Source of the DNA: a virus
DNA length: 28,239 bases
Direction: 5' to 3' (one strand)
Virus record (IMG/VR): IMGVR_UViG_3300032240_001551
Coordinates: 1 to 28,239 of that record
The translations under genes were made by a program, and so were the position numbers. Positions within the stretch are counted from its first letter, which is position 1; each line of letters starts with the position of its first letter. Of this stretch, positions 4,634-9,836 are shown one piece after another. The notes below the pieces were generated by a model. That model made no database searches, had not been told where the DNA came from, and saw nothing but the letters and a program-made list of their open reading frames with translations.

Positions 4634-5503
4634 GTGGTAAGACCTCGTAGAATATCGGATATCAAACCATTAATAACTAATCTTGCTCAAACTTCTCACT
4701 ATCAAGTGCAGTTTGGCAGCCTTCCTCCTGAATTAAGTTCATATCTTTTAGGAAAAGGAGTTGATTCTAGATTTATTGCAGAAGATGCTGGTCTTTTATG
4801 TTACTCTGCAATTCTTCCTACAACAAGCCTTGCAACTGCAAATATTAGTGGGAACTTTACTGGAATTACAGAAAAATTTGCTCATACGAGACAATATGAT
4901 TCAATATCTCTTGATTTTTATGTTGATAAAAATTACAGAGCTCTGAAATTTTTAGAATGTTGGATGGAATTTATTGCAAGTGGATCTACAAATCCAGTTG
5001 GTTTGGCCAATGAAAATGCGCCGATAAGTGTGAATGCTAATAATTATTTTATTCGAATGCAGTATCCCACATTTTATAAAGCAAATTCGGTAAAGATTGT
5101 CAAATTTGATAGGGATTATAATAGAGAAATTGAATATAATTTCAGAGGATTATTTCCTTCTGCGATTAGTTCTATGCAAGTTAGTTATGTTTCTTCTGAT
5201 ACTTTAAAAATGTCTGCTACATTCCAGTATGATCGTTATATTGCTGGTAGAGCGACAAGTTTAAGTCAATTAATTGGCAATAATAATAATCTAAATCCCA
5301 ATAACCCACAAGTATCACAATCTAATATTAATTCTGTACAATCTTTAGATGATATTAGTAAAAAGATAATCGATTCTCAGAAGCAAGTTTTTAGCAACGA
5401 TTATTCCAAAGTTTTTAACACCCCACCATCCTCTCCTAATAACCCTTCTCTAAGTAATCAATCAAATCAAACTACTGTAAGTGATTGGTGGAGAGCACTT
5501 TGA
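4634..5503 (+). CDS. 54: gp54-like baseplate tail-tube initiator
   Basis: gp54 forms the ring above gp48 on which the first gp19 tube ring assembles. The 289-aa protein (T4: 320) contains tube-like beta segments: SHYQVQFGSLPPELSSYL near the N-terminus, KFAHTRQYDSISLDFYVDKNYRALKFLECWMEFI in the middle, and QVSYVSSDTLKMSATFQYDRY toward the end. The last 80 residues are an Asn/Ser/Pro-rich, probably disordered tail ending WWRAL. It starts with GTG at 4634; no ATG is available near the N-terminal homologous region. An AAAAGG stretch lies just upstream. It is transcribed rightward, away from gp4. Confidence 0.85.
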   Translation: MVRPRRISDIKPLITNLAQTSHYQVQFGSLPPELSSYLLGKGVDSRFIAEDAGLLCYSAILPTTSLATANISGNFTGITEKFAHTRQYDSISLDFYVDKNYRALKFLECWMEFIASGSTNPVGLANENAPISVNANNYFIRMQYPTFYKANSVKIVKFDRDYNREIEYNFRGLFPSAISSMQVSYVSSDTLKMSATFQYDRYIAGRATSLSQLIGNNNNLNPNNPQVSQSNINSVQSLDDISKKIIDSQKQVFSNDYSKVFNTPPSSPNNPSLSNQSNQTTVSDWWRAL

Positions 5504-5545: not shown

Positions 5546-6265
5546 ATGCCTTTACCAAAGATTGCCACACCAACATATGAGTTGGAAATTCCTTCGATTA
5601 AAAAGACAATCAAATATCGCCCCTTTCTTGTGAAAGAAGAAAAGATTCTGATTATTGCGATGGAGAGTGAGGATCCAAAGCAAATTACTGAAGCAGTAAA
5701 AACAGTAATCGGGAATTGTGTTCTTACCAAAGGAATTAAGATTGAACAACTTTCTACATTTGATATTGAGTATTTGTTCTTGAATATTCGTGGAAAGTCA
5801 GTAGGTGAGCAAGTTGATGTTCTTATCACTTGCCCAGATGATGGAGTAACTCAAGTTCCTGTAAGTATTAATCTTGATGATATTAAAGTTCAAGTAAGTG
5901 AAATTCATACTAGAGATATTAAACTTGATGACATTCTGACATTGAGAATGAAGTATCCTTCTATGCAAGAGTTCATTAAAAATAATTTTAATAATGAATC
6001 TGAAATTAGTGTTGATGATACTTTTGATATGATTTCCTCTTGTGTAGAACAAATCTACAGTGAAGAAGAATCTTGGTCTACATCTGATGTGACCAAAAAA
6101 GAACTCATTGAATTTCTTGATGGATTGAGTTCGAAGCAGTTTAAGGATATTGAGAAGTTTTTTGAAACGATGCCTAAACTTTCTCATACAATTAAAATCA
6201 AAAATCCAAATACTGATGTGGAAAGTGAAGTAGTTCTTGAGGGTTTAACATCTTTTTTCGCGTAG
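5546..6265 (+). CDS. 26: gp26-like baseplate hub / tail assembly chaperone
   Basis: The 239-aa protein resembles the T4 gp26 group annotated as baseplate hub subunit in cyanophages (T4 gp26: 208 aa). It opens MPLPKIATPTYELEIPS with TIKYRPFLVKEEKILIIAME, the usual signature, followed by an 'IEQLSTFDIEYLFLNIRGKSVGE' type segment and a CPDDG turn that may pair with other Cys residues. The C-terminal third is helical and acidic. It lies directly before the tape-measure-like genes, the position of G/GT-type tail assembly chaperones in other phages. Near its end the codons TTT TTC preceded by T (6253-6259) form a canonical -1 slippery heptamer; a slip would carry ribosomes past the TAG at 6263 into the next ORF. 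Hub membership versus chaperone role is unresolved. Confidence 0.85.
   Translation: MPLPKIATPTYELEIPSIKKTIKYRPFLVKEEKILIIAMESEDPKQITEAVKTVIGNCVLTKGIKIEQLSTFDIEYLFLNIRGKSVGEQVDVLITCPDDGVTQVPVSINLDDIKVQVSEIHTRDIKLDDILTLRMKYPSMQEFIKNNFNNESEISVDDTFDMISSCVEQIYSEEESWSTSDVTKKELIEFLDGLSSKQFKDIEKFFETMPKLSHTIKIKNPNTDVESEVVLEGLTSFFA
6253..6259 (+). promoter_or_regulatory. Candidate -1 ribosomal frameshift site (T TTT TTC)
   Basis: In the gp26-like reading frame the codons are TCT TTT TTC GCG TAG. The heptamer T TTT TTC has the X XXY YYZ form needed for simultaneous slippage. After a -1 slip, reading continues CGC GTA GGA ATG into the 57-aa ORF at 6268 without a stop. The slip site is two codons before the zero-frame stop. 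I did not find an obvious stimulatory stem in the next bases. Confidence 0.55.
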
Positions 6266-6267
6266 GA

Positions 6268-6441
6268 ATGGCGCATGAGGATCTTGCGTCATACTACAAA
6301 ACTAATTTTGCTTTGATTCAGCATCATAAATATTCTTTAACAGAGCTGGAAAATATGATTCCTTGGGAAAGGGAAATTTATATTGGTCTTCTCCAGCAAT
6401 ACATCGAAGAAGAAAATCTGAAAAATCAAGCAAATGGCTGA
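6268..6441 (+). CDS. Small tail assembly chaperone partner (57 aa)
   Basis: This ORF starts ATG two bases after the gp26-like stop and ends at TGA 6439-6441, overlapping the next gene by 8 bases. The protein is acidic and helical: MAHEDLASYYKTNFALIQHH, a YSLTELENMIPWEREIYI core, then a charged tail. The 'sLxElexmPWeReiyixLL' pattern resembles the C-terminal part made by frameshifting in G/GT tail chaperones, and small ORFs of this kind follow gp26 in T4-like cyanophages. The purine-rich TAGGA touches the ATG, which is poor spacing for independent initiation, so expression by coupling or by the -1 frameshift upstream is likely. Function is inferred. Confidence 0.75.
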   Translation: MAHEDLASYYKTNFALIQHHKYSLTELENMIPWEREIYIGLLQQYIEEENLKNQANG

Positions 6442-7942
6442 TATGGATCCTGTAGCGATTGCCCAGAGTGGGGTTGACCCCATTACAGGATCCCCCCTGT
6501 CTTCAGAAGTTCGCAAAGCACTTTTTAAAAAAACAGTTGTACCAAGTGCCATATTTGGTCGTGGCGGAGCACTTGTAAAAAGAGATGAAGGTGCTCTCGT
6601 TGCTCAACAAACAAACCAACAGATTGTATCTCTTCAGAATCAAATACAAACTGTTAATGTTCAAGTTATAAATCTGACTAATGGATTGAATAATATCGCT
6701 GCACAACTAGCAGCAGATAGTGCTTTAGAGAAGCAGCAGATTTTAGCGGATAGAGAGAATGACCGAAAGTTAAATGAAAGAAAGGTTAGAATTGGCAGAG
6801 AAAGTCAATTAGAAGCAAAAATTACAAGTGCTCTTTTAAAACCAATAGCATCTATTCAACAAAAAGTTGGTGGTGTATTCTCAAGAATAATGAGCGCCAT
6901 TGAGATTTTATTTCTTGGATGGTTGACTAATCAAGGAATTGAAGCACTTAAAGCAAATGCAGCAGGAAATAAAACAAAATTACAAAAAATATTCCAAGCA
7001 ATTATTAATGGAGTTGTTGCTGCTGGCAGATCATTTTTACTTGTTGGGAGAGTAATTGGGAATATTACAAGATTAGTTACTAAGATTACCGTAGGAATTG
7101 CCAAATTAACTGCTGGATTGATTGGTGGAATCTTTCGTGGTATTGCTAATCTTACCCGAATGGGAATTGATGGAGTTAAAAGTCTTCTTGGAATTGGTAA
7201 AGTGGCAAGAACTGCAGAAGCAGGAGTGGATGCTGCAAGAGTAGGTGGAGGTTTATTAAAAGCAGGTGGAAAGGCAGGTTTAAGATTTGCTCCTGCTGCG
7301 GGAGCTGCGCTAGATTTTGCTTCTTCCTATCAAAATTTTAAAGAAGGTGATATTGGTGGAGGTGCTCTTGCCGCAACTTCTGGGGTATTGAATGTAGCAT
7401 CTTTAGCATTTCCAGTTTTAGAAATTCCCGCTCTTGCAGTTACTGGTGCTTCCATAACGCATGATTTAACTAAACCTTCTACTCCACCACCTACAACTAA
7501 ATCAAAGGCAGGTGCTTATCCACAAACAAAAGCTGTTCCACAAAAAAATACAAAATCATCTAAAAAACCACAAGCACCATCTCAACCACAAGCAACAGTT
7601 GCACCGACTATTAATAATTTCCAGTTAGGAATGGACAATTCTGCAACACAAACTGCTCAGACACCAACTAGCACAACTCCACAAGAACAGTCACCACAAA
7701 CTTTACAATTTAATATTCCTCAAGCACAAGTTCAAACTCCACAAATTACACCACCGAATGTTGGAGCACTTCCAGAAGCAAAACCAAATCTAATTATGGC
7801 ACAATCTGCAGTTGCTGCAAATAATCAACCTCAAACTCCACCATCATCAAAACCATTAACTGATGTTCCTTTGATTAATTCATCAAATCCTGATAATTTC
7901 TATACATTATATTCTCAAGTCAATTATAATGTGGTGATGTGA
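6434..7942 (+). CDS. Tape-measure-like tail protein 1
   Basis: The 502-aa protein has the layout of a tail tape measure or hub protein. Residues about 55-125 are a Gln/Asn-rich predicted coiled coil (LQNQIQTVNVQVINLTNGL) ending in RENDRKLNERKVRIGRESQLEA; residues 140-265 are long hydrophobic and amphipathic helices (AIEILFLGWLTNQGIEAL, then LVGRVIGNITRLV and repeats of that style); residues 270-345 are Gly/Ala rich; residues 345-480 are a Pro/Gln/Thr-rich linker. It directly follows the chaperone pair, the usual place for a tape measure. In T4 the tape measure is gp29 (590 aa); I see no gp29 motif I can name, so homology is not claimed. It shares a layout and a 'GAYP' element with the next gene. 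Virion location is inferred. Confidence 0.72.
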   Translation: MADMDPVAIAQSGVDPITGSPLSSEVRKALFKKTVVPSAIFGRGGALVKRDEGALVAQQTNQQIVSLQNQIQTVNVQVINLTNGLNNIAAQLAADSALEKQQILADRENDRKLNERKVRIGRESQLEAKITSALLKPIASIQQKVGGVFSRIMSAIEILFLGWLTNQGIEALKANAAGNKTKLQKIFQAIINGVVAAGRSFLLVGRVIGNITRLVTKITVGIAKLTAGLIGGIFRGIANLTRMGIDGVKSLLGIGKVARTAEAGVDAARVGGGLLKAGGKAGLRFAPAAGAALDFASSYQNFKEGDIGGGALAATSGVLNVASLAFPVLEIPALAVTGASITHDLTKPSTPPPTTKSKAGAYPQTKAVPQKNTKSSKKPQAPSQPQATVAPTINNFQLGMDNSATQTAQTPTSTTPQEQSPQTLQFNIPQAQVQTPQITPPNVGALPEAKPNLIMAQSAVAANNQPQTPPSSKPLTDVPLINSSNPDNFYTLYSQVNYNVVM

Positions 7943-7943
7943 T

Positions 7944-9836
7944 ATGGCAATAGCATCTCCTCTCAACATAGGAAATTCTACAAATTCATTAAGATCTGTT
8001 GGTGGAGCAGTTTCTGGTGCAAATAGAACGATTAAAAATATTGGTGGGATTATATTTCGTAGAACTAAATTTAAAAGAGAATCAATTGCAACTTCAAAGA
8101 CCTTAACGAATAGAAGAATTGAAAATGAGGATAGGGCAGATAGAGAAACTGAATTAGAAGCACCAAATCTTACAAAAACTCCAACTGGGGCATCAAATTT
8201 AGCAAATCAATCTGGGGGTAGTTTTTTAGATAGAATTATTGGATTCTTAGGATATACGACTGCTGGATGGATTTTGAATAATCTTCCAACTTGGATTGGG
8301 ATGGGTAAAGAATTTATTGCCAGATTACAAAAGGCAGGGCAAATTATTAGTTCTGTTGCTAGTGATGCAATTAATATAGTTGGTGGATTTGGTAATGTAT
8401 TGGGAGCAGTTGGAAAAGATATTCTCTCATTTGATATATTTGATAGTTCAAAGCGTTTACAAAATGCAGTAGGAGATTTGAACTCTACATTTGAAGATAT
8501 GGGTAAACAATTTAATGATGGATTTAAATTAGTTTCTACTCCATTAACTGATAAAACTGGAAAAGGAACTTATAGTGAAGCAAATATTCCACCTAAAGGA
8601 ACACCTTCTACTAATGAGGGTGCTTATCCAGAAACTCCTATGCCTTCTGGTGGTGGAGGAGGATTTGGTGGAGGTGGTAATGCAAATCAATTGGCTGCAA
8701 GTGTTGCAAAACGTTTGATGAGTGATTTTGGATTGACCGATTACCAAGCAGCTGGAGCTGTAGGAAATCTATTAAATGAAGGCATGGCATATGGAACAGG
8801 TGATATCATTCAGGGTGGAAAAAAAGGTGCTCCAAGATATAATGCATCAATAACGGAGGGTTACGGATGGGCACAATGGACTAATACTGAGGGTGGTGGA
8901 CCAAGAGATAGATTAAACAGAGCACTTATCTATCTTGGAATGAAAGATAATCCAAGACCTTGGAGTAATGATGATAATTACAAAGTTCTCAAATGGGAAC
9001 TTCAAAATGACAAAAAATATGTTATTAATAATTTAAAAAAAGCCAAATTTGTTGATGAAGCTGCAATGATTTGGCTTACTAAGTTTGAAGGAATTAATGA
9101 TGGAACTGGTCCAAGAAGAATTGCATCTGCTAAACAAGTTCTTCCAAAAATAGCACAAGCATCATTTACATCATCAACAAAACAAGCACAAGTTTCTTCA
9201 ACGCCAGGATCAAATGCATCTATTAAACCTCAAAATAAAGGAAATCTATTATCAGAATATATTACTGGAGACCCAAATAATTCCCATTATAGTAGAGATC
9301 ATGGTGGTCCTGGATACTATGACAACTATCATGACCATCTTGCATTTAAAGACAAAGAAACTACATTAAATGCTTTTAATTTCTTTAAATCTAAAGGATT
9401 TAAGGTTACAGAATTTGGTGTTAGTAGTGGTCATTCTGATGGATCTCTTCATTATTCTGGAAGAGCATTTGATATTCCTGGATATCAGTGGGGTGGTAAA
9501 AAGGGAACTCCTGCAGGTCCAAAAGAATTTGCTGGGTCAGCAAAAGTTAGAGCAACACTCGCACAATTTTTAGGAAGTTCTTCATCTTTGGGAAGTTCTT
9601 CAAATCCTGCAGCACAAGTTGCATCAACACCGTCATCATCGGGGCAAATGCAACAACAACTAACACCAGAAAGAACGGGGCAGGATATACTTGTCTTTGA
9701 TACTAGTGCTGGTCAATCTCCACCTCCTGCAGCACCTTCTGGTGGGGGTGGAGGAGCACCTATTTCTCCTGATGATTCTACTATGGTAAATAACTTTATC
9801 AAGAAAAAACTTCTTTTAGATTTGGTGTATCTATAA
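7944..9836 (+). CDS. Tape-measure-like protein with lysozyme and M15-like domains
   Basis: The 630-aa protein seems to carry cell-wall-cutting activity of the tail tip. Residues 1-170 repeat the layout of the preceding gene: a basic/acidic RRIENEDRADRETELEA segment, then hydrophobic FLDRIIGFLGYTTAGWILNN. After a Gly-rich linker (about 232-245), residues 250-410 look like the phage tail lysozyme family (Phage_lysozyme2): GAVGNLLNEG with likely catalytic Glu279, then EGYGWAQWT and a WELQND...AAMIWLTKFEG core. Residues 435-530 contain SLHYSGRAFD (501-510), an exact SxHxxGxAxD zinc motif of M15/VanY-type peptidases, with His503 and Asp510 as ligands; a third ligand may be in NYHDHLAF (His463 or His465). 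The C-terminus is Ser/Pro/Gly-rich. Activity is inferred from motifs. Confidence 0.85.
   Translation: MAIASPLNIGNSTNSLRSVGGAVSGANRTIKNIGGIIFRRTKFKRESIATSKTLTNRRIENEDRADRETELEAPNLTKTPTGASNLANQSGGSFLDRIIGFLGYTTAGWILNNLPTWIGMGKEFIARLQKAGQIISSVASDAINIVGGFGNVLGAVGKDILSFDIFDSSKRLQNAVGDLNSTFEDMGKQFNDGFKLVSTPLTDKTGKGTYSEANIPPKGTPSTNEGAYPETPMPSGGGGGFGGGGNANQLAASVAKRLMSDFGLTDYQAAGAVGNLLNEGMAYGTGDIIQGGKKGAPRYNASITEGYGWAQWTNTEGGGPRDRLNRALIYLGMKDNPRPWSNDDNYKVLKWELQNDKKYVINNLKKAKFVDEAAMIWLTKFEGINDGTGPRRIASAKQVLPKIAQASFTSSTKQAQVSSTPGSNASIKPQNKGNLLSEYITGDPNNSHYSRDHGGPGYYDNYHDHLAFKDKETTLNAFNFFKSKGFKVTEFGVSSGHSDGSLHYSGRAFDIPGYQWGGKKGTPAGPKEFAGSAKVRATLAQFLGSSSSLGSSSNPAAQVASTPSSSGQMQQQLTPERTGQDILVFDTSAGQSPPPAAPSGGGGGAPISPDDSTMVNNFIKKKLLLDLVYL

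Follow-up and report, generated by a model that had tools for sequence, protein, structure and literature searches.

The tail assembly chaperones (TACs) gpG and gpGT of phage lambda, together with their relatives, were reportedly described by Xu, Hendrix and Duda in 2004. The junction analysed here lies in a 28,239-nt stretch of DNA from an uncultured cyanophage (IMG/VR record IMGVR_UViG_3300032240_001551, hereafter the window) and shares with the lambda system two overlapping open reading frames, a slippery heptamer in register near the end of the first frame and, as we propose, a -1 slip into the second. The lambda locus is situated between the tail tube and tape-measure genes; in the window, the gene downstream is tape-measure-like by position and composition only. 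Unlike the lambda site, the heptamer here consists of a poly-T run accompanied by a Shine-Dalgarno (SD)-like element and a hairpin, and the likeness comes without any sequence relation that we could find. The second frame here also differs from its lambda counterpart in often keeping an ATG, which has led to its annotation as a separate gene. In the dnaX cassette of Escherichia coli, an SD-like element about 10 nt upstream of a slippery heptamer is combined with a short spacer and a stem-loop. The junction has comparable parts, with GAGGG 9 nt upstream and a hairpin 8 nt downstream of the heptamer, but the analogy is one of parts only: the gene is a different one, and the heptamer is T TTT TTC here and A AAA AAG in dnaX.

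In 2022, Vladimirov, Gautam and Davidson are said to have identified gp26 and gp51 of phage T4 as tail assembly chaperones; that these are the two genes concerned is what we take from our reading of the citations and from domain comparison. In T4, the short and long forms each have a full gene of their own, and these genes lie on opposite strands, whereas a single locus is involved here. According to the PRFect paper (PMC10885494), which draws on Vladimirov 2022, some T4-like phages dispense with frameshifting and carry one short gene plus a longer, fused one. PMC12846349 attributes to the same study the finding that T4-like TAC-N genes contain polyT slippery sequences. It also describes a conserved -1 TAC frameshift in phage Adele (Vandenendeviridae/Andersonviridae), with a poly-T GTTTTT at the end of TAC-N; as at our locus, the ORF that follows has been entered as a gene in its own right (there a hypothetical one). 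The Adele-type TACs belong to other phage families, and the available part of PMC12846349 describes neither a hairpin nor an SD element for them.

Our analysis indicates that the gp26 and gp51 ORFs of the window very probably form a single TAC gene with two products, the longer one made by programmed -1 frameshifting. An earlier reading of this DNA from its sequence alone (the sequence-only reading) had tentatively placed a G/GT-type chaperone switch in a T4-like tail module. We support that placement; it is not new in principle, given the report of Vladimirov et al. 2022. In the open literature that was searched, no explicit earlier account of frameshifting in cyanophages was found. The principle of a G/GT-like pair in T4-like phages has thus already been published; the case for this locus is well supported, and its frameshift signals are unusually complete. 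The result corrects the annotation of a near-core locus: many genomes have the second ORF down as a separate baseplate catalyst, start it wrongly at an internal ATG, or miss it. It also offers a comparative system in which related phages obtain the same protein pair in one of three ways, namely frameshifting, duplication of the gene (T4), or fusion (contig L008, below).

The junction in the window

The gp26-like gene (5546..6265, + strand) encodes 239 aa with clear matches to PF12322 (E = 3e-74) and phrog_150 (E = 9e-81), and represents the putative short form of the chaperone (TAC-N, lambda-G-like). It directly follows the tail tube gene (4634-5503; PF23849, phrog_45). Its 3' end reads GAG GGT TTA ACA TCT TTT TTC GCG TAG, in which T TTT TTC at 6253..6259 (+) stands in the X XXY YYZ register of the gene. 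The sequence-only reading had given this heptamer and its phase exactly; its register and its conservation mark it as a candidate site for a -1 slip of tandem tRNA-Phe. The frame-0 stop TAG (6263..6265, +) is located 3 nt past the heptamer, and among relatives the stop is TAG, TAA or TGA while the -1 phase is maintained. After a slip, the ribosome would read CGC GTA GGA ATG GCG CAT, and this frame was confirmed to be that of the 57-aa ORF at 6268-6441, as had been claimed. The -1 extension (6259..6441, +) therefore comprises RVG plus 57 aa as the putative C-terminal part of the long form, and the predicted frameshift product has about 298 aa, 238 from frame 0 and 60 from the -1 frame. Over the 8061 codon positions in the 19 ORFs of the window, TTTTTTC in register occurs once, at the end of gp26; TTTTTTN occurs in register five times and any XXXYYYZ 54 times.

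The 57-aa ORF carries a match to phrog_634 (E = 6e-27), the baseplate hub assembly catalyst T4 gp51, and is annotated in RefSeq records of relatives as a separate gp51 of that name. The sequence-only reading had given it a G/T-like helical core, but what it matches is the C-terminus of T4 gp51, and no similarity to lambda T was shown. The ORF also matches the C-terminal end of phrog_150, which hints at a gp26/gp51 fusion elsewhere.

Conservation of the heptamer among relatives

Homologous junctions were gathered from IMG/VR and from annotated phages, giving 225 distinct junctions. T TTT TTN is present in register, 0-6 nt ahead of the frame-0 stop, in 222 of them, and the -1 frame is open into the gp51 segment for 41-72 aa beyond the stop in every heptamer-bearing junction. 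Among the heptamer-bearing phages are Kyanoviridae, Straboviridae of Aeromonas, Vibrio and Cronobacter, and Rhizobium phage RHph_I9 (Pootjesviridae) with a relative, the Rhizobium phages having the variant TTTTTTG. For some of these relatives, identity to the window protein is as low as 20-33%.

Third-base changes in 162 cyanophage gp26 genes were counted by parsimony on a tree whose construction left out the last columns. The three heptamer codons showed 0, 0 and 1 changes, compared with a gene median of 43 (237 columns) and with 7-44 changes in ten other conserved Phe columns. No synonymous break of the heptamer was found among the 162 genes. The codon ahead of TTT varies among Ser, Ala, Asp and Asn codons, yet its third base is invariably T. 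The last frame-0 codon encodes Ala, Gly, Val, Glu or Ser, yet it is GNN in 78 of 79 genes, and this first-base G retains Arg (CGN) in the -1 frame. The heptamer and the -1 phase, whose conservation the sequence-only reading had left as a question, are thus kept beyond codon constraint. Neither a heptamer broken by synonymous changes nor a small ORF in another frame, which it had named as counterexamples, was found apart from one fusion and two distant non-canonical groups.

The same T run might act on transcription instead, with RNA polymerase gaining or losing a U to give mixed mRNAs. The homopolymer is in the right place for this, and 7-9 T are present in some relatives of the L098 group. 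However, transcriptional slippage generally needs 8-9 T, and in 132 close relatives the run is shorter, exactly six T, with C, G or A in front and never a further T. TTTTTTG in the Rhizobium phages and TTTTTTC elsewhere suit tandem tRNA slippage. We therefore regard transcriptional slippage as highly improbable and prefer programmed frameshifting by the ribosome.

The fusion was found on a 236-kb metagenomic contig (L008:1501-2393), where gp26 and gp51 form a single in-frame ORF of 296 aa. An apparent 2-nt deletion joins the two ORFs, and the heptamer is lost. If the fusion is real, this locus would yield the long form alone in such a phage; as the fusion is represented by a single contig, it could in principle be an assembly error.

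The two distant groups are the Ackermannviridae and Vibrio phage K382, in both of which the canonical heptamer was sought and not found. The gp26-like genes of Ackermannviridae (L085, L270-L287) end in GAR ATT TTC ATY TAA. Their -1 frame enters a conserved gp51-like ORF of 50-54 aa (LIFEIDLLSYFVMCDELK...MPWHLD), which is unannotated in STML-13-1, and this junction may use a non-standard slip or some other form of recoding. In Vibrio phage K382 (L087:3200-3420), the junction reads A CTT TTC AAG TAA TGG and the -1 frame is open into an unannotated gp51-like segment; a scan found no relatives of this phage.

Flanking elements and start codons of the second frame

The spacing of an SD element is subject to a rule in dnaX-like frameshift stimulation. 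The SD-like GAGGG of the window (6239..6243, +), a proposed stimulator, is positioned 9 nt upstream of the heptamer and encodes a Glu-Gly that is conserved as protein in the cyanophage genes. Codon bias is also evident: GAG is used for this Glu in 127 of 160 cyanophage genes, whereas its share is 8-35% in nine other columns of conserved Glu.

Beginning 8 nt past the heptamer, a hairpin with an 8-bp stem and a 9-nt loop is predicted at 6268-6275/6285-6292 (6268..6292, +). For the window stretch, the folding energy is -16 kcal/mol (z -4.35), a value that none of 200 shuffles equalled. Among 54 close relatives, pairing holds in 96.8% of the cells, and the pair 6273-6287 is G-C in 25 sequences, U-A in 25, A-U in two and G-U in one, with position 6273 being the synonymous third base of an Ala codon. 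The observed covariation score was reached by none of 500 shuffles and slid controls were far lower; the covariation comes mainly from one pair, and three pairs are invariant in the 54 sequences. The hairpin is lineage-specific: the window's GCN subgroup (median z -3.3) and part of the MA10 group have it in strong form, whereas most members of the S-RIM2-like, PX29, Rhizobium and L098 groups show a weak one or none. When all 132 close junctions were folded to a consensus, no shared structure emerged, because the hairpin differs among subgroups; the subset of 54 shows it. In an MA10-type relative (L101), the corresponding place past the heptamer is occupied by a hairpin of 10 bp whose sequence differs (ATGATGCAC...GTGCATCAT). 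GAGGG and the hairpin probably assist slippage.

Nucleotide-level constraint next to a hairpin is also what a regulatory or processing signal unrelated to decoding, such as a terminator-like element or an RNase site, could display. We give hardly any credence to this explanation. The T run precedes the hairpin, which is the wrong order for an intrinsic terminator, and the constraint tracks the codon register. Furthermore, the heptamer is kept where the hairpin is absent and is lost exactly in the fused L008 allele. A role in frameshifting is the reading that we retain for these elements.

The ATG of the small ORF (6268) lies within the 5' arm of the hairpin and is directly abutted by AGGA, so that the sequence-only reading was right to call its initiation signals poorly spaced. 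The hairpin may also block separate initiation of gp51. A separate 57-aa gp51, made by termination and reinitiation at this ATG with the heptamer being incidental, would nevertheless agree with several observations: in almost all of the 80 closest relatives, 2 nt separate the gp26 stop from the gp51 ATG, an ATG is present in 128 of 133 close relatives and in all 53 members of the L098 group, and RefSeq treats the ORF as a gene of its own. Since an ATG starts the small ORF in this window, some separate gp51 could be made. However, 26 junctions have no ATG between the heptamer and the conserved -1 part, and 19 of these also lack GTG and TTG. The ATG-less junctions belong to the S-RIM2-like (13 of 16), ACG-2014j-like (4 of 4) and PX29-like (4 of 4) groups and to the window's own group (5 of 133). 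Their -1 reading, FFRIALLHTNL... or FFRLTLVNDSI..., aligns with FFRVGMAHEDL of the window. Reinitiation also leaves unexplained the invariance of the heptamer, the L008 fusion and the gp26-like domain in T4 gp51. We consider it very unlikely as the main route, and frameshifting into the gp51 segment remains our interpretation.

Five annotated genomes (L091, L092, L093, L094 and L095) have no ATG at the junction. Among them, the gp51 segment is unannotated in Cronobacter LPCS28, Synechococcus ACG-2014b and ACG-2014j, and Aeromonas AS-yj, and in S-RIM2 gp51 is annotated from an internal ATG 50 nt beyond the gp26 stop.

Relation to T4 gp51 and proposed mechanism

T4 gp51 (249 aa) has a PF12322 domain at residues 1-201 (E = 4e-52), followed by the gp51 C-terminal segment. 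T4 gp26 has the PF12322 domain only, and the window gp26 belongs to the same Pfam family (T4_baseplate). Both phrog_150 and phrog_634 are matched by T4 gp51 and by the L008 fusion. Cyanophage gp26 is thus the homologue of T4 gp26, and gp26 plus gp51 together are the counterpart of T4 gp51. Because T4 gp51 consists of a gp26-like domain and a C-terminal piece, the cyanophage 'gp51' can be read as the frameshifted tail of the long chaperone. Cyanophage gp51 has been described as being without the first ~200 residues (Sullivan et al. 2010, PMC3037559); a frameshift that joins gp26 to it would explain these seemingly missing residues. The G/GT-type interpretation made in the sequence-only reading gains support from several lines: the ATG-less relatives, the fusion, the SD-like element, the covarying hairpin and the architecture of T4 gp51.

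The structure of the L008 fusion was modelled with a mean pLDDT of 84.6 and a pTM of 0.74, the C-terminal part having low confidence. The model resembles predicted phage hub chaperones. A Foldseek search against the PDB gave no match at E<=0.001; among the matches listed, the HK97 TAC gp13 (PDB ID 2ob9) had the top probability (0.41, target TM 0.42) with a non-significant E of 1.7. A profile search of solved structures returned nothing useful. The gp26 proteins of non-cyanophages have paired Cys (CPKCG near the C-terminus) and further conserved Cys in the middle of the protein, which suggests zinc binding. The C-terminal CxxC is absent from the cyanophage gp26 proteins.

In the mechanism that we propose, most ribosomes would terminate at the frame-0 TAG and release gp26, the 239-aa short form. 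In a fraction of ribosomes, tRNA-Phe in the P and A sites on UUU UUC would re-pair one base back on UUU UUU, a slip probably promoted by the downstream hairpin and by base-pairing between GAGGG and 16S rRNA. The slipped ribosomes would read RVG and then the gp51 segment, giving the 298-aa gp26-gp51 long form. If lambda G/GT and T4 gp26/gp51 are a guide, both forms may coat or hold the tape measure or hub during tail assembly and depart before the virion is completed. Slippage and its rate, its stimulation by the SD-like element and the hairpin, and the role of the products as chaperones in this phage are inferred. More tentatively, and with somewhat more doubt than confidence, we suggest that frameshifting and not gene duplication is ancestral for the chaperone pair of T4-related myophages and has been kept in cyanophages, in several Aeromonas, Vibrio and Cronobacter phages and in Rhizobium phages. 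In some cyanophages, the covarying hairpin might then bury the gp51 start, so that the small protein would be made almost only within the fusion.

Trypsin is predicted to cut at the junction (SFFR|VGMAHEDL), giving the peptides ...LTSFFR and VGMAHEDLASYYK. Together with the absence of T4 gp51 from finished particles (PMC3004832), this makes virion mass spectrometry the wrong test for the long form.

Downstream of the junction, the 502-aa gene at 6434..7942 (+) is called tape-measure-like from its position and hydrophobic composition only, and no confident family match was found for it by Pfam/PHROG-type profile comparison. The second gene past gp51 (7944-9836) encodes a 630-aa protein with a Phage_lysozyme2 domain (PF18013, E 2e-18), and by this domain it is a predicted tail lysozyme adjoining the tape-measure-like gene.
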